Made by a program: the position numbers and the translations under genes. Positions 20,871 to 63,647 of a stretch of 64,000 nt of DNA are shown one piece after another. The number at the start of each line of letters is the position of its first letter. The stretch's first letter is position 1. Source of the DNA: Clostridioides difficile CD160 (lineage in GTDB: Bacteria; Bacillota; Clostridia; Peptostreptococcales; Peptostreptococcaceae); assembly GCF_000449425.2 (NCBI RefSeq), contig NZ_AVHW01000099.1, forward strand, positions 1-64,000, given 5' to 3'. The notes beneath the pieces were generated by a model. It made no database searches. It was not told where the DNA came from and saw only the letters and a program-made list of their open reading frames with translations.

Positions 20871-22637
20871 CTATGAGATTATATTGTATTTTTCAATTTT
20901 TCTATATAATGTAGCTCTTGATATTCCAAGTGCTTTAGCTGTTAATTCTTTATCTTTTTTATAATCTTTGTATTTATTTAAAGCTTTTATTATCTCAATT
21001 TTCTCAAGTTCATCAAGTGGAATTACTTTATCACTTTTAACTTCTAATTCTTCTACAGATGTATTTTTTATTTTTTGAGGAATCACATTCATTGTAATTA
21101 TTGGAGATGAAGACATGTTCACACTATATTCAATGATATTCTGTAACTCTCTTATATTGCCTGGCCACTTATATTCAATCAAGGTATCAACAACCCTACT
21201 GTCTATATCAATAACATTTTTAGCTAGTTTTTTTGAATACTCTTTAACCATATGCTTAATTATAAGTGGTATATCATCTTTTCTTTCTCTTAAACTTGGT
21301 AATTTTATAGGTATAACATTTAATCTATAATATAAATCTTCTCTAAATGTCCCATTTTGAACCATTTTTTCTAAATCTTTATTTGTTGCAGCAATAATTC
21401 TTACATCAATTAAAACATTTGATTTACTTCCAATCTTATTAAGCTCTTTTTCTTGTAATACTCTCAATAATTTTGACTGTAAGTGCAAACTCATATCTCC
21501 TATCTCATCTAAAAAGATACTCCCTTTATGCGCTACTTCAAACATCCCAAGCTTCCCACCTTTTTTAGCTCCAGTAAAAGCTCCCTCTTCATATCCAAAT
21601 AGTTCACTCTCCAATAAATTATCTGGTATCGCTGCACAGTTTACAGCTATAAAAGGATTATCAACCCTATTACTATGATTGTGTATGGCTCTTGCAAAGA
21701 GCTCTTTACCCGTTCCACTTTCACCAGTAATAAGTACTGTTGAAGTTGATTTAGAAGCCATCAGCGCTTCTTTTTTAGAATTTCTTATAGCTGTACTTTC
21801 TCCAATTATATTTTCCAATTTTATCTTATAATCTTTATTAATCTTATTGTAGTTTTTTATAGCGTCTCTTTTATCTATAAAGTCAATAACGTATCCTTTT
21901 AATTCATTTTTTAATACTATTTTATTGATGTTATATATTCCCTTTGAATCATATCCATATCTCTTATAAAAAAAGCTACATGATTTATCTTTCTTAAAGT
22001 TATTTATAGAAGGCTTCTGTATAAAGTCTAATTCAGCAAATATGTTTTTGCCAGTTATATTATCTTTTAGATTAAAAAGCTCCTTAAATTTTGAGTTATA
22101 TTTATCAATTTTACCATCTACATCAATAGATACAACTGCCTTGTCCATATTGTTTAATAAAGTTTCTAATTTTTTCTTTTCTAATTCCAGTTCATATGTT
22201 TTAATTTGAGCTTTTAATTTGCTAGATATTAAATCTGCCATCTTTCCTAAAAAGTTTATAAGACCACTTTTATTATTTTCTATAATCTGTGCCTGCTCTT
22301 TTGTAAAGGCTATAAGACCTATAACACCATGAGAATCACCATCACATATAATAGGGCAACACACCTCTGCAAACTCTACACAAGCATCATTTTTATAACA
22401 TTCCTTACATATATCACTACTCTTTGGGTCATCAATCAATATTGTAATCTGTTCTGTAAGTGATTTTTTAAAAGCTGTATACTTATCTACTTTCTCACCT
22501 ATTTTATCTACATAGATTCCTGTTCCTGCAATCCTAAATAACTCCTTATTTACTATAGTTACATCTATATTGAGCACTGATACTATAGCCTCAGCTATGT
22601 TTTGAATATCAGTTTTTATATATTCTAGACCTATCAT
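20871..22637 (-). CDS. cdsR: Sigma-54-dependent transcriptional activator (likely CdsR)
   Basis: 588 residues from the ATG at 22637 (AAGGA 9 nt upstream; two ATGs just before it are alternatives). The N-terminal 145 residues are a sensory domain with a [19 protein letters not shown] cysteine cluster. A PAS-like region spans about 155-260. The AAA+ domain (about 280-510) has GESGTGKE (Walker A), GAFTGA and [10 protein letters not shown]-terminal Fis-type HTH ends [13 protein letters not shown]. Its neighbour cdsB has a sigma-54 promoter, so it probably activates cysteine breakdown. Confidence 0.85.
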
Positions 22638-22642
22638 AATCA

Positions 22643-22780
22643 TCATTCCTTGTTTTTTCTTAACATAAGTATTTGTCTTATTTCTTTAAGAATCAAGTAT
22701 ATCTTATTTAAAGTAAATTGGATTGACATTAGGACTACAAAGAGCATAACAATTATTATCAACTCATAATTTATTTCCAT
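22643..22780 (-). CDS. Small single-span membrane protein, 45 residues
   Basis: A short ORF begins [16 protein letters not shown] at ATG 22780, with a strong AAGGAGATG RBS 5 nt upstream. Residues about 7-24 are hydrophobic (one membrane span), followed by a basic tail ending LMLRKNKE. Its TGA (22645-22643) overlaps the ATG codons at the start of cdsR, so the two are probably translationally coupled. A terminator-like hairpin lies just upstream (22800-22830). No family is recognised; a role in cysteine/EBP signalling is only suggested by position. Confidence 0.65.
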
Positions 22781-34872: not shown

Positions 34873-36837
34873 TTAATTTTTTACTCTTTTAGCTTGATAT
34901 ACCAATCCACAAATTGCTATAACACCAATAAGTATATATGGCATTATTTGCGTTTCATCACCTGTTTTTGGTGATTTTACCACTATATCATGTGATGGTG
35001 GCACTGGTGGGTTTACTATTGTATCATTTTTTGATGGTACTGATGTATTTTCTACTATATCACTTGATGGTGGTACTGGTGGATTTATCACTGTATCACC
35101 TGATGGTGGTATTGGTGGATTTATCACTGTATCCTCTGATGGTGGTATTGGTGGATTTATCACTGTATCCTCTGATGGTGGTACTGGTGGATTTATCACT
35201 GTGTCATCTGATGGTGGTGATGGCTTAGGTTTATGCCCGTTTGAGTCATTATTATCATTATTTGGTGGTATTGGCGGATTTACATCTGGGTCTCCATCCG
35301 TTGGTACACCTATATTGAAATCAACTACTTCACCACTTTTTTGTTCTATTGTATAGCTCAATAAATTTTGCTTACTAGCTGGTAATACAGATGAGTGGTC
35401 TTTTTCTCCAAAATCAAAAACTGTCTTAAAATATTGAATGGCTTTTGGGAAAATATAATCATAAGATAATGCAGATACCTTATCTTTTACATCTGGCTTA
35501 TCTATGCTCTTAAGTTTAAACTTTTGTTGTGTTGAAATCTCTACTTCACCTGTACCTATTACATTTCCGTTTTCATCATAAGCAGTTACTCCATCTGGTA
35601 ATTTCAACTTAACCACACCACTGTAGCCTACTAGAGCTATAGATTCTGTTTCATAAGTTCCATCTTGAATTTTATCAAATTTAATATCAGTTAAACCACT
35701 ACTTAAACTAGGTTTTCCTGTATCATTTGGCTTTAACTCATTACGACCAGCTTCTAATAATGCTTCTAAATAAGCTTTTGTATTTATTTGAGCTTCCTTG
35801 TCTTTCAGATATTTAGCTTTTTCTTCTTCAGTATTTGCATTCTCTATCAATCTATCATAAGAATCTATAAGAGTTTGATAAAGCTTAAGTCTCTCTTGCT
35901 CATTCATTTGCCCAAGCATAATCCAAATTGCATCTTGAGTTGCAAAATGAATCATACCTTCATATTCTTTTCCACCTAAATTAAATTGTTGCTTATATCC
36001 AAATCCATCAAACTCAGAACCTGCATATAGTATAGATTTAATTGCATCTTCATTTTTATTTTCTTGACCATTAAAATCTTCTGCTGGTAAGTATGGACTC
36101 TTATTTTTATTACTTGGAGATTTTAAATGATTATTGTAACAAAATGCAGTTTGTTCTCCATCTTCACCTTCTATTACATATTTACCATCCTTATGGCTTG
36201 CACCTATAAGACCCTCTATTACATAATCGAAAGTTAAAGTTTTTGTAATATCATCAAATCTTAAATCAAAATAAGGTCTATTTGAACCATCTGTTTCTTT
36301 TAATAAACAACTATTCTTTACTTTTGAATTTTTATTATTAGACCAAAAGCTAGTATTTCCATCTCGTGAAGTAAGTACCTCATAAATTTCTGACTGTTCA
36401 TCTGTTTTTACATCATTTTCGTCTTCCCAGAAATTATATACAATCTTATTTATTTGAGATACAGTAAGATTAAGAATATCTTCAATGTTCTTCTTCAAAC
36501 TCATTTCTTCCACTTCTAATTTTTCTTCTTCTGATGGTATCATTTCATTTGGTACTTCTTCTAATGATGGTTTATCCCCATCTGGTGTCTCTCCTACTGT
36601 TGGTTTTTCTCCATCTGGCGTCTCTCCTACTGTTGGCTTCTCTCCATCTGGTGTTTCTCCTACTGTTGGTTTCTCTCCATCTGGTGTTTCTCCTACTGTT
36701 GGTTTCTCTCCATCGAGTATTATATCTTTTCCATCTACTTCGTCAGCATAAGATATTATTGGTGCAAATGCAGTAAATGCTATACTAAAAGCAATTACTA
36801 AACTAATTATACTTGATTTTTTAATTTTTATTTTCAA
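34873..36837 (-). CDS. Sortase-anchored proline-rich surface protein (CD3246-like)
   Basis: 654 residues from a TTG at 36837, 6 nt behind AGGAGG. There is a signal peptide (SIISLVIAFSIAFTAFAPIISYA). Four DGEKPTVGETP repeats lie near residue 45-90, then a large domain, then a proline-rich stalk with six (V/I)NPP(V/I)PP units. The C-terminus has SPKTG, a hydrophobic span and KRVKN, matching the (S/N)PxTG signal of C. difficile sortase B. NP-PxP sequences like these are cleaved by the secreted protease PPEP-1, which releases such adhesins when c-di-GMP is low. A c-di-GMP-II riboswitch precedes it. Confidence 0.92.
   Translation of the reverse strand: MKIKIKKSSIISLVIAFSIAFTAFAPIISYADEVDGKDIILDGEKPTVGETPDGEKPTVGETPDGEKPTVGETPDGEKPTVGETPDGDKPSLEEVPNEMIPSEEEKLEVEEMSLKKNIEDILNLTVSQINKIVYNFWEDENDVKTDEQSEIYEVLTSRDGNTSFWSNNKNSKVKNSCLLKETDGSNRPYFDLRFDDITKTLTFDYVIEGLIGASHKDGKYVIEGEDGEQTAFCYNNHLKSPSNKNKSPYLPAEDFNGQENKNEDAIKSILYAGSEFDGFGYKQQFNLGGKEYEGMIHFATQDAIWIMLGQMNEQERLKLYQTLIDSYDRLIENANTEEEKAKYLKDKEAQINTKAYLEALLEAGRNELKPNDTGKPSLSSGLTDIKFDKIQDGTYETESIALVGYSGVVKLKLPDGVTAYDENGNVIGTGEVEISTQQKFKLKSIDKPDVKDKVSALSYDYIFPKAIQYFKTVFDFGEKDHSSVLPASKQNLLSYTIEQKSGEVVDFNIGVPTDGDPDVNPPIPPNNDNNDSNGHKPKPSPPSDDTVINPPVPPSEDTVINPPIPPSEDTVINPPIPPSGDTVINPPVPPSSDIVENTSVPSKNDTIVNPPVPPSHDIVVKSPKTGDETQIMPYILIGVIAICGLVYQAKRVKN
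34985..35280 (-). repeat. Repeats encoding (V/I)NPP(V/I)PP stalk units
   Basis: About 45-nt units, each coding for a PPSxDTVINPP-type block, recur through this stretch, with one degenerate unit (ENTSVPS). Confidence 0.85.
36580..36715 (-). repeat. 33-bp tandem repeats encoding DGEKPTVGETP
   Basis: Four near-identical 33-bp units followed by a diverged fifth (DGDKPSLEEVP). They are located after the signal peptide; copy number is likely to vary between strains. Confidence 0.88.
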
Positions 36838-36854
36838 GATTTTCCTCCTATTTA

Positions 36855-36950
36855 TATTTATAGCAGGTTGCACTACTAACTCCATATATCTTTTAAGTGC
36901 CCAGATTTAAGATATACTTCACAGTTTCTATAAATAGGTTTTTAGTAATT
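36855..36950 (-). promoter_or_regulatory. c-di-GMP-II riboswitch upstream of the surface-protein gene
   Basis: On the minus strand the class II aptamer is clear: GAAACTGTGAAGTATATCTT, then GGGCAC, then ATGGAGTTAGTAGTGCAACC, then TGCT. An outer CTATTTATAG/CTATAAATA stem closes it. The RBS AGGAGG (36849-36844) follows within about 15 nt. In strain 630 an allosteric group I intron lies between this aptamer and the ORF; here no intron is present. Confidence 0.92.
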
Positions 36951-37063
36951 TTTAATTCTTATTTTTAAGTATTTTAAGTGCACTTTTTATGAATATCCTA
37001 AAATATAATCTTATTATTTAAGATATTCTTGATTAATAAAAGACAAAAATATATTTTCACACT

Positions 37064-37088
37064 AAAAAAGATACCATAGAGTATCTTG
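37064..37088 (-). terminator. Terminator upstream of the c-di-GMP-II aptamer
   Basis: AAGATAC pairs with GTATCTT (6-nt loop), followed on the minus strand by T's. It lies between a promoter at 37209-37237 and the aptamer. Confidence 0.75.
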
Positions 37089-37203
37089 ATATAACACAAA
37101 AACTTTACCCTGTTGGATGATTGACTTCATTAAATTTTTACCTGTCAATATGGCCACATATTTGAGTCTTTATTTTTGTCTAATATAATTTTAATAGCTA
37201 TTT
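37064..37203 (-). ncRNA. Putative short structured leader RNA
   Basis: Between the promoter-like sequence and the terminator is about 140 nt with two hairpins (ATATGTGGCCATAT, and ATTGAC...GTCAAT). It has no ORF with an RBS. It may be a small RNA or an attenuator in the leader of the surface-protein gene. No known family is recognised. Confidence 0.4.
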
Positions 37204-37208
37204 CCATC

Positions 37209-37237
37209 ATTATACATTATGCATTACCTTTTGTCTA
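37209..37237 (-). promoter_or_regulatory. Sigma-A-type promoter
   Basis: TAGACA and TATAAT on the minus strand are separated by exactly 17 nt. Confidence 0.6.
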
Positions 37238-37289
37238 TTTTTTCCATATTATTTATATTATTCCATAATGTTATCGTCATATTACAACA

Positions 37290-37338
37290 AAAAACATCCT
37301 TAAAGTAATTTTTCAAACTTTTCTAAGGATGTTTTTTT
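37290..37338 (-). terminator. Terminator of prdC
   Basis: AACATCCTTA and TAAGGATGTT form the stem, with T-runs on both strands. Confidence 0.9.
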
Positions 37339-37369
37339 CATATATTTTTATATTATATTATTATTTATA

Positions 37370-38683
37370 TTATTTTATTTTTAATCTTACGTCACCTTTT
37401 ATTCTTCTTATTAATGGGTGATTAACTGTTCTCATTACATGGTCAGTAATATGATATACACCTAATTTTAATTTTGGTGCAGAACCCATTACTGTGTTAC
37501 TACAGTCAGTACAGTTTCCTATTAATATAACTTCTGCTCCAGCTTTCTTAAATTCTATACATTTTTGAGCTTGTCCTGGACAGTGTCCTGGATTTTCACA
37601 TTTTAATGCACCTTTAATTTCTTGAGCTTGTTTACATTTTTGAACTGATACTATATCAGTAACTCCCATTTTAGCTGCTATGTCTCTCATTCTTTCTTCA
37701 TTAGGTCCACATGCACAGACTAAAAGACCCATTTTTCTCTTTTCATTAACAAATGGCATAGTAACTATTATACCACCACTAGTTTTAGTTATTGGAGTAT
37801 CTAAAGTAGTAGCTTTACCAGTGAAAGGTCCTCCTAAGATTATCTCTCCGTATTCACCTTTTATTCCACCAGCTCTTTCAATTAATTCTCCAACAGTAGT
37901 TCCGATAGGCACATCTTCAAATACTATAGATTCTTTTCCACTGTTTAATTGTCCAACTACAGTTACATTTTTAGATATAACTGGTCTTTTTTGCTCAACA
38001 GCTTCTACTATTCTAGTTAATGTCTCTACATTTATTACTACTGCATTAGCTTCTGAAGGTAATTGAGTTGGCTCAAGTAATTTACCTAGAACATCTCTTA
38101 CTATCGCTCTCTCTTCTCCCATTGGGTACATGTCAACTAGTTCTGCAACTTCTATGTTATCTCCTGGCTTTATTACTTTTTTGAATGCTGCTATTGCTTC
38201 TGGATGCTTGCTTTTTATTGCTAGCATACCTTTTCCAGCATTAGTAACTTCCATAGCGTATTTTATACCTTGATAAACTATTTCTGGTCTTTCTTCTATT
38301 TCTTTTATGTTGTGAGCTAATAAAGGTTCACATTCAGCTGCATTTGCTAATATTGTTCCACCTTTTAAATCTATGTTTAATTTTATATGAGTAGGGAATC
38401 CTGCTCCACCCATTCCTACAACTCCAGCTTCTTTAATTAAGTCAAGTATACTTTCTCCTTTTAATGGTTCAAAAGTATCATCTTGTACTTCATCAGCTTC
38501 GATTACTATAGCTTGGTCATTTATTTCACTTATTTTTCCACTAACACTGGCATAAATATTTGCCCCTAATCCAGCTGGTTCTGCGATTAGAGTTCCTTTT
38601 TTTACTACATCTCCAACACTTACTACTGGTTTATCTGGACCACCAACGTGTTGTTTTAATAAAATAGAATATAGTTTGTTCAA
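37370..38683 (-). CDS. prdC: RnfC-like electron-transfer protein PrdC
   Basis: 437 residues. An RnfC-type N-terminal barrel (GLGANIYASVSGKI) is followed by a Rossmann/FMN-like domain with GVVGMGGAGFPTHIKLN. A C-terminal cysteine-rich part has CACGPNEERM, CKQAQEIKGALKC and GHCPGQAQKC. PrdC is thought to pass electrons from NADH to D-proline reductase, linking proline reduction to redox balance. It is transcribed apart from the other prd genes from its own sigma-54 promoter. Confidence 0.94.
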   Translation of the reverse strand: MNKLYSILLKQHVGGPDKPVVSVGDVVKKGTLIAEPAGLGANIYASVSGKISEINDQAIVIEADEVQDDTFEPLKGESILDLIKEAGVVGMGGAGFPTHIKLNIDLKGGTILANAAECEPLLAHNIKEIEERPEIVYQGIKYAMEVTNAGKGMLAIKSKHPEAIAAFKKVIKPGDNIEVAELVDMYPMGEERAIVRDVLGKLLEPTQLPSEANAVVINVETLTRIVEAVEQKRPVISKNVTVVGQLNSGKESIVFEDVPIGTTVGELIERAGGIKGEYGEIILGGPFTGKATTLDTPITKTSGGIIVTMPFVNEKRKMGLLVCACGPNEERMRDIAAKMGVTDIVSVQKCKQAQEIKGALKCENPGHCPGQAQKCIEFKKAGAEVILIGNCTDCSNTVMGSAPKLKLGVYHITDHVMRTVNHPLIRRIKGDVRLKIK

Positions 38684-59156: not shown

Positions 59157-61172
59157 TTATGAAAAACAGAGATTTAATTTTATTGTAAAAACGGTTCCTT
59201 TTCCTAACTCTGAATCTACAAAAATTTCTCCATCATGTTCTTTTACAATGGACTTTACAATATATAACCCTAACCCTTGCCCTGTTGAAATGTCAGTATC
59301 TCTTGCTGTAAAGAACCGTTCAAATATCTTTGGTATATTTTCTGGTGGTATTCCTTTACCATTATCAGAAATTTTAATAACTGCAAATTCATCTTCTTTA
59401 TTCATTGACAAACTTATCCTACCATCAAATGAAGTAAAGCTTAAAGCATTGTAAATTAGATTTTCAAATGCTCTAGCCAATCTTTCTTTATTTATCTTTG
59501 CATATATTTTTTTATCTAATAGAGAGAGTTCAAAGTTTACACCACATGCTTGTGTGTCTGGCAAGTTATTTTCATATATCTCTTTGATGAAATCATTTAG
59601 ACATATCTTCTCACTAAGACCAATTTCTTTATCTTGTGATGTAAATTCTTGTAGACTACGTACTCTACTTTGTACTTCATTTGATTTTTGATTTATCGCA
59701 GATAGATAAGCTTTTGTCTCTTCATCTACATGAATATTACCAACCTTTATTAAATCTATAAATGCCTGTATAGCTGAAACAGGTGCTTTTAAATCATGTG
59801 CCACATCAGCCAAGAACTTTTTACGTTCATCTAATAGTGTCATAAGTTCATTAGTTCTTAATTCAACTTCATGCTCAAGATTCTTTGTGAGTTTTTCATT
59901 TTCTTTTATTATCATCTTGTTCCTATGTATCATCATAATAGAAAATAAAATAACAATTATAAACCCACAGTATTCTGTTTGCCATCCTGTAAATATAGGC
60001 TCAAATCTGTTACTAGTCACTGCATCGAATAATACACTAATACCAAACACAATATTTACTGAAACTAAAATATAGGAACTTATATGCTCAGAGCATGTCT
60101 TTTTATAGATTGAAACTAGTGAAGACATTAAGATATAAATAAATACAATATATTTATATATATCTATTAATTTTCCATATATATCAACAAAATCTATATA
60201 ATATGGAAGAAGAACAACTGGTATTACAATAGATATAATACACATTGTAATCCCTAATGGTAAAATTAAAAATCTATATCCTTTATTTTCTTCTATTTTG
60301 GATATACTTCCATTTATACAAATAATACATAAGACCGCTATAAAATATGATGAATCCTCAACTGCATATGTAAAGTTTACTAAAGGAAGTCCCAATAGAT
60401 GCACAAAAGGATATGATACATGTATTGCAAAGAAAATACACATACATCCAAAATAAAAGTAGAGTTTACTTTTTTTTGAAAAAAACCAAACAGCTAGTGA
60501 AAATATAGCTATTGCAAAAGTTGTGAAACAAATTATACTATAAAAAAGTAATCGATAAAATACCATATTACTTATGTCTTTTGTTTCCCCCAATGCAGGT
60601 GGATAATACAAACCACTATAATAATGTGAAAAATTAGATACATTGATTATAATTTCTGTATCTTTATTTGCGACAAAACTTACTACTGAATTTTTAATTT
60701 TTGGTCTATACTTTTCTGTTCCTACATCTCCTAGTTTAGAAACCATTTCTCCATTTATCCATACTTCACTTGCACAAAAAATTTCAGGAATCTCTAGACT
60801 TAATACCTTATCCCTACCTTCATTTTTTATTCTCATACGGTAAGTAGCATTGCCATATGGTGATTGGTTCTCTTTTCTCATAGAGAAATCTGGATATTGA
60901 CCTATAAAAACGTATTTTGGTTTTATATGTTGTTCTATAAAATCATTTGGTTTAAATATTTTATGGTTATAAAACTCCCAATCATCTATTAAAAAGACAA
61001 GTTTACTTTTAGTAAAGGTATTACTATCTATAGTTAAAATTCCATTACTTGCTCTAATAGACTTATATGTATATTTATTATCATATTTATACAGAAGATT
61101 TAATCCTGTTATTGCCAACAGAGAGATTATCAATACAATGAGAGTTCCTTTTAGTATATTATACTTTTTCAT
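59157..61172 (-). CDS. cmrS: Sensor histidine kinase CmrS
   Basis: 671 residues from the ATG at 61172 (start uncertain). After an N-terminal membrane helix comes an extracellular 7TMR-DISM-like domain (about 30-190), then about seven helices (about 200-410), then a coiled coil. The HisKA motif is FLADVAHDLKAPVSAIQAF. The ATPase domain has ENLIYNALSF (N box), ISDNGKGIP (G1) and GQGLGLYIVK (G2). It should phosphorylate CmrR. It follows cmrR by about 70 nt. Confidence 0.9.
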   Translation of the reverse strand: MKKYNILKGTLIVLIISLLAITGLNLLYKYDNKYTYKSIRASNGILTIDSNTFTKSKLVFLIDDWEFYNHKIFKPNDFIEQHIKPKYVFIGQYPDFSMRKENQSPYGNATYRMRIKNEGRDKVLSLEIPEIFCASEVWINGEMVSKLGDVGTEKYRPKIKNSVVSFVANKDTEIIINVSNFSHYYSGLYYPPALGETKDISNMVFYRLLFYSIICFTTFAIAIFSLAVWFFSKKSKLYFYFGCMCIFFAIHVSYPFVHLLGLPLVNFTYAVEDSSYFIAVLCIICINGSISKIEENKGYRFLILPLGITMCIISIVIPVVLLPYYIDFVDIYGKLIDIYKYIVFIYILMSSLVSIYKKTCSEHISSYILVSVNIVFGISVLFDAVTSNRFEPIFTGWQTEYCGFIIVILFSIMMIHRNKMIIKENEKLTKNLEHEVELRTNELMTLLDERKKFLADVAHDLKAPVSAIQAFIDLIKVGNIHVDEETKAYLSAINQKSNEVQSRVRSLQEFTSQDKEIGLSEKICLNDFIKEIYENNLPDTQACGVNFELSLLDKKIYAKINKERLARAFENLIYNALSFTSFDGRISLSMNKEDEFAVIKISDNGKGIPPENIPKIFERFFTARDTDISTGQGLGLYIVKSIVKEHDGEIFVDSELGKGTVFTIKLNLCFS

Positions 61173-61243
61173 TGCATCAATCACATCTCTTTCATAGTAG
61201 TACTAAATAAAACAAGAACTATTTATTGATTACAGTATCCCAC

Positions 61244-61921
61244 TTACGGTACAAATTTATATCCTTTTCCCCATACAGTTTGAATGTATTGATGCTCTCT
61301 GCTTAAAGAATTAATTTTTTTCCTCATCTGTGCAATATGAACCTGTACTGTATGTTGGTCTCCAATATCAGGCATTTTCCAAACTTGATTATATATTTCT
61401 ATTTTTGAGAATACTTGTTCTTTATTTTCAGCTAGAAACAATAATATTTCAAACTCCATAGTGGTTAAATCGATACTTTTTTCGTCAAAAGTTACTTTTC
61501 TTGAGTTCACATTTATCACTAAAGACGAAAATTTTAACACATTAGGAACTGATGTAATGTTTTTATATTGCCTCATACGAGCATATATTCTAAGTTCAAG
61601 TTCTTTTAAGCTATATGGCTTTGTTATATAATCATCTCCTCCAGCTAAAAAACCCCGAACTCTTTCTTCTTCATGTTCATAATTAGATAAAAATATTATA
61701 GGTATGTTAACCTTTTCTTTTATAACATTGCATACTTTATACCCATCTAAGTCTGGTAATGCAATATCTAGAATTATACAATCTAAAACTACACTTTCTA
61801 CTATCTTCATAGCCTCTTTAGCTGTCTTAGATATATATACATTAAAACCTATATTTGAAAAATAAATTTGATTTATGTTTAAAATATCAACATCATCATC
61901 TACAACCAGTAAGTTATACAT
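61244..61921 (-). CDS. cmrR: OmpR-family response regulator CmrR
   Basis: 225 residues from the ATG at 61921, behind GGAGTGGTGTA. A canonical receiver: acidic DDD at 8-10, phospho-acceptor Asp52 in IILDIALPDLDG, and K in YITKPYS. The C-terminal winged helix is complete (SIDLTTMEFEILLFLAENKE, HTVQVHIAQMRKKIN, IQTVWGKGYKF). First gene of cmrRST, behind a 540-nt regulatory region with a switch and riboswitch. Confidence 0.9.
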   Translation of the reverse strand: MYNLLVVDDDVDILNINQIYFSNIGFNVYISKTAKEAMKIVESVVLDCIILDIALPDLDGYKVCNVIKEKVNIPIIFLSNYEHEEERVRGFLAGGDDYITKPYSLKELELRIYARMRQYKNITSVPNVLKFSSLVINVNSRKVTFDEKSIDLTTMEFEILLFLAENKEQVFSKIEIYNQVWKMPDIGDQHTVQVHIAQMRKKINSLSREHQYIQTVWGKGYKFVP

Positions 61922-62114
61922 TACACCACTCCATTCAAAATATTTCAATCATAGTCTAAGGTTTTAATTATTACAAATTATGATGTTTTATTTTTTATAT
62001 AACTAGTATTATTATTTTATAATATCTTTACAAACTCGACTATAAAACTTAAGTATTTTTGAATAATTCTTGAATATTGAATTAAATATTAAGATTCATT
62101 ATTAAATACTAATC

Positions 62115-62382
62115 AAAGTCTCCGATTGTTGGAAAATGGAGCTTAAGGTGATTTTATATTATAAATTTATTATTTTTCTAGAAACTTGTCAATCAGCCAG
62201 TTTGAGTATTGATTTATATGATTTATATAGTTATAATATAAAATAAATTGGATTATTTTGGTAAATGTATTGTTACAAAATGTTTATATTTCGCATCTTG
62301 ATGTTTATAAAAACGTTATTTTCTTATTATAATTATATTATACTTTAAAAAAAATTCCCCTTTTCCAACAAATGGCTACTTT
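62115..62382. other. Candidate invertible DNA element (cmr switch)
   Basis: Two imperfect 30-nt inverted repeats (62115-62144 and 62353-62382) share 22 of 30 positions, with TTGTTGGAAAA at the core. They bound a 208-bp AT-rich interior upstream of cmrR. Position and size fit the phase-variable cmr switch, inverted by a site-specific recombinase. Orientation alters cmrRST expression. Which orientation is ON cannot be judged here. Confidence 0.8.
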
Positions 62383-62469
62383 AAAAGCCAAAATTCCACG
62401 TATCAAATTAAATCTAACTACTAATTCAATAGTCTTTAGATTTTTAAATATTTTTGTTAAATTTAAAAC

Positions 62470-62508
62470 AAAAAAAGGCTATGCAATATAAAATTATATT
62501 CATAGCCG
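62470..62508 (-). terminator. Terminator of the cmr riboswitch
   Basis: On the minus strand GGCTATG-AATATA pairs with TATATTG-CATAGCC, followed by TTTTTTT. Its 5' arm overlaps the 3' end of the aptamer (CCGGCTATG), so ligand binding would block it. Confidence 0.88.
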
Positions 62509-62575
62509 GTTGCACCACTAACTCCATATACCTCTAGATGCCCAATAATAAGGTATACTTCTCAGTTTCTAAAAT
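62500..62575 (-). promoter_or_regulatory. c-di-GMP-II riboswitch upstream of cmrRST
   Basis: The class II aptamer is clear on the minus strand: GAAACTGAGAAGTATACCTT, GGGCATC, ATGGAGTTAGTGGTGCAACC, GGCTATG. It is followed by a terminator sharing the last segment, as in an ON switch. The invertible element lies between it and cmrR. Confidence 0.93.
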
Positions 62576-62732
62576 ATTTTTATTAAAAAATTTTAATACA
62601 CTTTAATAAATTTCCTTTTTATTCTAACATTGTAATATTATTTTGTCAATATTCCAATATTCTTTAGAGATAATGTACTAAAATATCTATTATATAATTA
62701 AAATATTTATATTCATATCACCAATAATAGAC

Positions 62733-62784
62733 AATACCCTGCAAGTTACAGCAACATTTTTATGAGCTTATCTTGCAGGGTATT
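62733..62784 (-). terminator. Terminator of pstS
   Basis: AATACCCTGCAAG and CTTGCAGGGTATT form a perfect 13-bp stem. Confidence 0.88.
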
Positions 62785-62813
62785 ATATATTCATTTTATA
62801 TTAAATATTTATA

Positions 62814-63647
62814 TTATTGATTAACTTTAATAAATCCTTTTTCTGAAACAAGTGCTTGTCCTTCGTCACTCAATATATAATCTATTAAAGCTTTACCTTT
62901 TTCTGATAAATTATCTTCTTTATTAACTAGTATAAATGGTCTTGATATTGGATATTTATTAGCTATTACATTGGCATCAGTTGCTTCAACATCATTTATT
63001 TTCAAACTATTTACTTTCTCATCAACATATCCAAATGATATATATCCTATAGCATTTTCATTTCCCTCAACTGTAGTTTTTATATTTCCTGAACCATCAC
63101 TTATTTGTGCATCTTTAGTTAATTCTTCTGACTTGAATCCTACAATTTCTTGGAATCCATCTCTAGTTCCTGAACCTTCTTCTCTTGATACAATTACTAT
63201 TGGAGCGTCATTTCCTCCTACGTCTTTCCAGTTAGTTATCTTTCCTGTATAAATACCTTTAACTTGATCCATTGTTAAATTTTTTACTGGGTTAGTAGTA
63301 TTAGTTATCAATGCTATTCCATCTATTGCTATCTTAGTTTCCTTTAATCCAGCACTTTTTTCTTCATCTTTTAAGTCTCTTGAACTCATTCCTATCTCAG
63401 ATGTTCCTTCTATAGCATTTTTTATACCTCCAGAAGAACCAATCTGTTGAACTTCTACACTAACACCTTCATTTTTTTCCTGAAACTTTTCTCCTATAGT
63501 TTCCATAAGAGGACCTATTGAAGTCGAACCTGAAACAGAAACTTTATTTGAGTCTGCTGAACCTCCTGAGCCAGAGCCACATCCTACTGCTAAAACTCCA
63601 ACTAACATTGTACTAGCTAAAAGAACTCCTATTTTCTTTTTAAACAT
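62814..63647 (-). CDS. pstS: Phosphate-binding lipoprotein PstS
   Basis: 277 residues. The lipoprotein signal ends LAVGCGSGSGG (lipobox Cys near residue 23). Phosphate-binding motifs are VSGSTSIGPLMETI, IGSSGGIKNAIEGTSEIGMSSRDL and SREEGSGTRDGFQEIVG. It captures phosphate outside the cell for PstCAB. Here it stands apart from pstCAB with its own terminator and Pho-box-like repeats. Confidence 0.95.
   Translation of the reverse strand: MFKKKIGVLLASTMLVGVLAVGCGSGSGGSADSNKVSVSGSTSIGPLMETIGEKFQEKNEGVSVEVQQIGSSGGIKNAIEGTSEIGMSSRDLKDEEKSAGLKETKIAIDGIALITNTTNPVKNLTMDQVKGIYTGKITNWKDVGGNDAPIVIVSREEGSGTRDGFQEIVGFKSEELTKDAQISDGSGNIKTTVEGNENAIGYISFGYVDEKVNSLKINDVEATDANVIANKYPISRPFILVNKEDNLSEKGKALIDYILSDEGQALVSEKGFIKVNQ

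Follow-up and report, generated by a model that had tools for sequence, protein, structure and literature searches.

The window analysed here, a 64,000-nucleotide stretch of the Clostridioides difficile CD160 genome, carries on its minus strand a TTG-started surface adhesin gene located between prdC and prdR (Table 1). The translated product contains a thioester domain (PF08341, E 3.9e-10), a signal-peptide-like start, NPPVPP/NPPIPP repeats and an SPKTG motif. Judged by this domain, the SPKTG motif, the repeats, the prd neighbours and a leader common to intron-bearing relatives, the gene is the CD3246 orthologue. Excerpts of earlier work count the C. difficile 630 protein CD3246 among the thioester domain proteins (PMC11477304) and give it the SPKTG motif together with clustered protease sites (PMC4591827); the gene is assigned to the core genome in the available part of PMC6814731, and ribotype 027 is reported to be without it in that of PMC4591827. 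The window also holds, at 20871-22646 and ~10 kb from prdR, a second PrdR-like sigma-54 regulator, which scored 422 bits, under the family cut-off of 795.

Upstream of the CD3246 orthologue, as in the allosteric ribozyme of strain 630, lies a c-di-GMP-II aptamer. A cmscan search of the window returned RF01786 at 36938-36853 on the minus strand with a score of 77.2 bits (E 1e-15), above the gathering threshold of 53.5, and the match was full length (model positions 1-84). From the 3' end of the aptamer at 36853 the sequence runs through AAT, AGGAGG (36849-36844) and AAAATC (36843-36838) to the TTG start codon (36837-36835), with 15 nt separating the last aptamer base from TTG. The Shine-Dalgarno (SD) word is contiguous and sits 6 nt from TTG, rather than being interrupted as in the allosteric ribozyme. 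Neither the sequence nor a terminator scan of the window leader revealed a terminator-like site between aptamer and gene; an SD adjoining the aptamer without an intervening terminator is the geometry of a translational ON riboswitch. The first-pass annotation had placed the aptamer next to the ribosome-binding site, about 15 nt from TTG with AGGAGG in between, and the 77.2-bit match and the gap read from the sequence bear this out. The mechanical ORF list begins a 670-aa open reading frame at an in-frame ATG that falls within the aptamer (36885). Inspection revealed no SD 5' of this ATG; automatic annotation could choose it as the gene start, thereby hiding the riboswitch.

Table 1. Features of the CD3246 leader and related sites (window coordinates unless a genome and contig are named)
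Feature	Position	Strand	Basis
CD3246 orthologue, TTG-started surface protein gene	34873..36837	minus	PF08341, translation, gene order
c-di-GMP-II riboswitch aptamer (RF01786)	36853..36938	minus	cmscan; also found in whole-genome search
P1 5' strand CCUAUUUAUAG	36928..36938	minus	cmscan
P1 3' strand CUAUAAAUA, ON register	36855..36863	minus	cmscan structure line; duplex -5.4 kcal/mol
UAUAAAUAGG, alternative partner of P1 5' strand, OFF register, includes AGG of SD	36847..36856	minus	10-bp helix
Second putative SD-masking hairpin CCUGCUAU/AUAGGAGG, exclusive with P1	36844..36867	minus	MFE of longer leader cut
Shine-Dalgarno AGGAGG	36844..36849	minus	sequence
Insertion place of group I intron in five related species, AGGAG/intron/GARAATT and equivalent cut registers	36844..36847	minus	sequence comparison
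Palindrome AAGTGCACTT, conserved in 8/8 genomes	36976-36985	minus	leader alignment
Terminator-like hairpin AAGATAC...GTATCTTTTTT, conserved 8/8	37064..37087	minus	sequence and leader alignment; missed by terminator scan
Promoter-like TAGACA-17-TATAAT, both boxes identical in 8/8 genomes	37209..37237	minus	consensus match, candidate
Second c-di-GMP-II aptamer, then terminator-like hairpin, response regulator and histidine kinase genes	62495-62578	minus	cmscan, gene order
Weak group I intron-like matches	G001:C1:2248563, G002:C31:373914, G003:C48:85191, G005:C308:13595, G006:C1:2077545, G007:C1:2051862		

In strain 630, ~600 nt including a group I ribozyme are described as separating the aptamer from CD3246 (PMC12564702, in part), and the ribozyme as interrupting the ribosome-binding site (PMC4591827, in part). 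Both sources, as far as their available text goes, agree with the order that the first-pass annotation had given, namely aptamer and self-splicing group I intron before a UUG-started surface protein gene. No group I intron lies between aptamer and gene in the window leader. Rfam returned no group I intron match in 36500-37500 at E up to 5, and none of the 219 12-mers common to the five orthologous leader introns described below was found within 2.5 kb of the aptamer (4 of them, AT-rich, occur elsewhere in the window). Likewise, GCTCC, the guide word of these introns, is missing from -450 to +900 relative to the aptamer start. The absence of the intron, as first claimed from the letters alone, was upheld by both Rfam and the shared 12-mers, and an intron displaced elsewhere in the leader, which would have overturned that claim, was looked for by Rfam, 12-mers and GCTCC and not found. 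In the 4.76 Mb of the window genome (G000), RF00028 matched 25 times at a cut-off of E 0.001, with none of these matches reported at the CD3246 leader; the genome is therefore not poor in group I introns. A permissive Rfam search of 61000-63500, around the second aptamer of the window, similarly yielded no group I intron remnant.

We compared the leader across eight Clostridioides genomes (G000-G007, window genome included) using a 501-base query spanning it, which was found in all eight. In three genomes (G000, G002 and G005) the match continues through the SD without an intron. In the remaining five (G001, G003, G004, G006 and G007) it is interrupted at query positions 255-259, inside the SD, and inserts of 555-572 nt, running from TAAC to TATC, separate the two parts of the match. 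The five inserts are 90.3-99.1% identical pairwise. Rfam reports a group I intron in four of them; the fifth, from G004, is 97.1% identical to the insert of G006. A GCTCCCT word, complementary to the GGAG in the 5' flank, is found in each of the five. In all, five of the eight genomes carry some 560 nt of intron at an identical point and three lack it. The other group I introns of these genomes, which are presumably of the IStron kind, are 69-72% identical to the leader intron core over ~360-395 nt in most matches, and differ from it in having no match to roughly its first 103-125 and last 88 nt. A weak group I intron-like match (28-33 bits, 329-331 nt) was also seen in 6 of the 8 genomes (Table 1).

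The junction was examined by comparing the last 26 nt before the start codon, beginning with CTATAAAT, with both insert flanks of each genome, keeping the flanks unjoined. The best indel-free split matched at 24 of 26 positions in G001, G003, G006 and G007 and at 25 of 26 in G004. The best cuts were AGG/AG, AGGA/G and AGGAG/T, and a fourth, three bases further on, tied in four genomes, G004 being the exception. With the cut AGGAG/T the insert reads TAAC...TATCAG and its 3' side GARAATT-TTG. On this comparison the window is a clean, indel-free empty site of the intron alleles, in keeping with the earlier remark that its DNA resembles the spliced product. In the absence of c-di-GMP, the ribozyme is described as cleaved at a point 4 nt ahead of the start codon (PMC12564702, in part). 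That position in the intron alleles reads AGGAG/AAUU-UUG (AGGAA in G004), and the word before it equals the 5' flank; its recurrence at both places fits a 5' splice site after AGGAG, given the cut as described in that excerpt. We infer that the 3' splice site of the relatives lies after CAG, in which case the spliced mRNA would carry AGGAGG plus 6 nt before UUG, as in the window. Recombination between the flanking AGGAG words was considered as a route of intron loss and rejected; it predicts AGGAG plus 4 nt, whereas the window has AGGAGG plus 6 nt.

To address the direction of change, nucleotide trees were built for alaS, with 5 outgroups, and for folC, with 4 outgroups and without G003. The three intron-free genomes group together with support of 99 (alaS) and 100 (folC), and their clade neighbours G001/G007 (plus G003 in alaS) with support of 99 and 93, leaving G004/G006 outside. 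Monophyly of the intron-bearing species was rejected (AU p 0.0039 for alaS, 0.0096 for folC and 0.00019 for both). G004/G006 are basal in the alaS protein tree too, where support within the genus is 56 and lower, except for G002+G005 (80) and G004+G006 (100). Since the intron-free species are nested among intron-bearing ones, one loss is simpler than two gains, and we regard loss from an intron-bearing ancestor as fairly likely. The CD3246 locus is, however, a cross-species recombination mosaic between prdC and prdR, as seen when G007 (locus L102) is compared with G006 (L101) and the window, and this counts against a firm call of polarity. In 150-column windows, the leader, intron and 5' gene part of G007 are 94.7-100% identical to G006 (one window, 88.9%) and the 3' gene part is 97-100% identical, but across the middle of the gene 5 of 7 windows place G007 nearest to G000 or G005 (alignment without G002).

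The intron-free state could instead be ancestral, with these species never having had the intron and the allosteric ribozyme arising elsewhere in the genus by insertion of an intron into an SD-masking riboswitch and spreading by recombination of the leader, a history that we consider unlikely while granting it a real chance. Consistent with this history, the leader does move between species: G007 and G006 share 99.1% identity in the intron but 93.3% in alaS; large parts of the G007 locus are G006-like around a gene middle mostly closest to G000/G005; and intron-free, SD-coupled class II aptamers exist elsewhere in the family. It is opposed by the nesting of the intron-free genomes in two rooted genes and by the introns themselves: those of G001/G003 are 90.3-91.2% identical to those of G004/G006, within the flanking-gene range of 87.8-96.1% for the same pairs, so no recent transfer is seen between the two intron lineages. 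Ancestral absence moreover requires one gain and an old transfer, versus a single loss.

For this intron-free arrangement, the first-pass annotation had proposed direct control through the closing stem of the aptamer. The in silico reading that fits best does use this stem, as the P1 5' strand is predicted to have two alternative partners. With CUAUAAAUA it forms 9 bp and an isolated duplex of -5.4 kcal/mol, and with UAUAAAUAGG a 10-bp Watson-Crick helix of -8.7 kcal/mol. A helix of at least 10 bp including at least 3 SD bases arose in 3 of 5000 dinucleotide shuffles. The CC of the P1 5' strand, CCUAUUUAUAG, is unpaired in the aptamer fold, where cmscan flags the two P1 pairs at this CC as non-standard, and is complementary to GG of the SD. 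This leading CC, which pairs only in the OFF register, is present in 8/8 CD3246 leaders and in 0/22 other class II aptamers of these genomes, the count covering 30 of the 31 class II sites in the eight genomes (one site is without a locus). All eight leaders carry CTGCTATAAATATAAATAGGAG and CCTATTTATAG unchanged; the switching bases are invariant across the 8 genomes and accordingly show no covariation.

Folding calculations point the same way, albeit modestly. With the shorter leader cut the OFF register is present in the minimum free energy structure (MFE) of 8/8 leaders. The longer cut of the window leader gave a different MFE, in which the SD lies in a second hairpin, CCUGCUAU/AUAGGAGG, instead of the OFF register; both cuts thus mask the SD. 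The second hairpin is predicted at -6.3 kcal/mol in the window and -4.0 with the intron-allele sequence, and the overall stability of the longer cut, matched by 17 of 200 shuffles (z -1.52), is not remarkable. For the three intron-free leaders, including that of the window, enforcing the aptamer with 20 of its 22 model pairs took the mean unpaired probability of AGGAGG from 0.22 up to 0.39. The same calculation for the intron alleles gave 0.41 to 0.41 in three, and 0.47 to 0.49 and 0.48 to 0.52 in two. The predicted rise in SD exposure on aptamer formation is therefore modest, and a local hairpin of -1.7 kcal/mol that covers part of the SD in the aptamer-formed fold limits it. The gap between the free and the aptamer fold is ~11 kcal/mol in a model without pseudoknot and ligand.

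These observations suggest the following mechanism. Without c-di-GMP, the P1 5' strand CCUAUUUAUA would pair with UAUAAAUAGG and cover part of the SD, and/or CCUGCUAU would pair with AUAGGAGG and mask it. When c-di-GMP is bound, the P1 5' strand would be kept on CUAUAAAUA, freeing AGGAGG for initiation at UUG. We infer ligand binding, SD masking and the loss of the intron from an intron-bearing ancestor. In this view the window leader, a CD3246 (Cdi2_1) c-di-GMP-II leader without the intron, probably acts as a translational ON switch that controls the SD directly. Because the switching bases are identical in 8/8 leaders, the intron alleles would have their 5' splice-site region covered by this helix, so that one strand swap may gate splicing there and ribosome binding in the window. 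For strain 630, P1 has reportedly been proposed to pair with the 5' splice site. We are close to evenly divided, with a slight lean toward doubt, over a broader reading in which allosteric ribozyme and simple riboswitch are exchangeable states of a single locus. On that reading a strand-swap riboswitch existed first and houses the intron in its SD, one helix gates either the 5' splice site or the SD, and in one Clostridioides clade an RNA-precise loss of the intron reduced the two inputs of the ribozyme to the single input of a riboswitch again. The ON direction agrees with what the available text of PMC11477304 states for class II switches of C. difficile.

The modest exposure change also leaves room for the view that intron loss uncoupled the gene from c-di-GMP, leaving the aptamer a relic and AGGAGG to support constant translation. 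The SD exposure of the leader is indeed within the range of shuffled sequences, 14% of 500 of which were as low. Against this view, the three intron-free aptamers score 77.2-78.1 bits, not below the 75.5-77.0 of the five intron-linked ones, and the switching bases are unchanged in species whose gene bodies differ by 8-11%; we consider it improbable. We give a similarly slim chance to control that is mainly transcriptional and exerted upstream of the aptamer, where a promoter-like TAGACA-17-TATAAT, a terminator-like hairpin and the palindrome AAGTGCACTT are conserved in 8/8 genomes. The riboswitch of 630 is described as controlling transcription as well (PMC4591827, in part). These elements, however, lie upstream of the aptamer, which could therefore not act on that hairpin in the usual way, and the stretch between aptamer and gene is, as noted above, free of terminator-like sites. 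Rfam gave no convincing match upstream of the aptamer (37237-36939, minus strand), and a 47-base piece over the upstream hairpin recurs, at 83%, ~3.2 kb from another class II aptamer (G000:C92:8467-8513). Finally, an intron dropped from the window contig by misassembly is extremely improbable: group I introns do seem to break the G000 assembly, at least 18 of the 25 matches lying exactly 59 nt from a contig end, but the window contig continues through the leader and the junction is common to three divergent assemblies (G000, G002 and G005) with differing flanks.

We thus favor a direct translational ON switch at an empty intron site. A 2022 review (PMC9481103) describes, in the part available, the c-di-GMP-II/group I system as the only known natural unimolecular allosteric ribozyme and restricts the aptamer-ribozyme pair to C. 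difficile. No report of an intron-free CD3246 leader was found in the literature searched, parts of which were available and which did not extend to the primary 630 papers; an earlier mention is possible. Given the reported restriction of the pair to C. difficile, the unusual feature here is the existence of two allele types at one gene, matched with and without the intron, and the switch type itself is not new. A rare natural allosteric ribozyme is seen here in two forms, one of which lacks the ribozyme. The sister alleles, which differ in little besides the intron, provide a natural control for comparing response curve, GTP dependence, leakiness and speed, and the helix proposed to gate splicing becomes testable as an SD-masking helix in the intron-free alleles. 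The matched alleles also bear on how an allosteric ribozyme arose and on what the intron adds.

Among known class II riboswitches, those of the terminator type in the same genomes (e.g. 62578-62495) share the aptamer class of the CD3246 leader and its expected ON response. In contrast to that leader, their P1 begins without CC, and the 3' end of the aptamer feeds a terminator-like hairpin rather than an SD. The cmrRST genes of 630 are listed, in the available part of PMC11477304, with a riboswitch before response regulator and histidine kinase genes, as at 62495-62578.

Closer in design are class II aptamers that adjoin an SD. An automatic pattern rule, which assigned SD and terminator classes to 61 distinct parsed sites, placed 11 of those from other genera of the family next to an SD. 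Five such loci (L142, L143, L144, L151 and L154) resemble the window in that the aptamer is followed by an SD-like word and a start codon within ~30 nt, and no terminator was found at SD-coupled loci of other genera, these among them. Their masking sequences differ from those of the window leader, and at L142 and L144 the stretch after P1 is, by eye, complementary to sequence beyond the start codon, unlike in the window. With SD-coupled class II aptamers present elsewhere in the family, the switch type of the window leader is ordinary. The same survey (loci L001-L004, L056-L081, L140-L164 and L170-L237, 55 of 123 loci being without a parsed site) bore on a candidate output code in which AGUA precedes SDs and AGUG precedes terminators; with more data this code weakened to a tendency and was set aside. 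The base before GUGC in AGU[A/G]GUGC at the 61 distinct sites was A in 13 and G in 1 of the SD class, G in 33 and A in 8 of the terminator class, and A in 5 and G in 1 of the others. One of the 13 SD-class A sites (L062) is a misclassed intron allele, and the corrected counts are A in 12/13 SD sites and G in 33/41 terminator sites.

The closest known system is the aptamer with allosteric group I ribozyme of strain 630 (Lee 2010; Chen 2011; known here through citing papers), which, as described there, has the gene and aptamer class of the window leader and would be expected to share its ON response. By the same descriptions, the window leader differs in having no ribozyme and an unsplit ribosome-binding site, and its input would be c-di-GMP alone rather than c-di-GMP and GTP. 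The likeness is drawn through the five intron-bearing relatives, whose switching bases are identical to those of the window, the 630 system itself being known by description.
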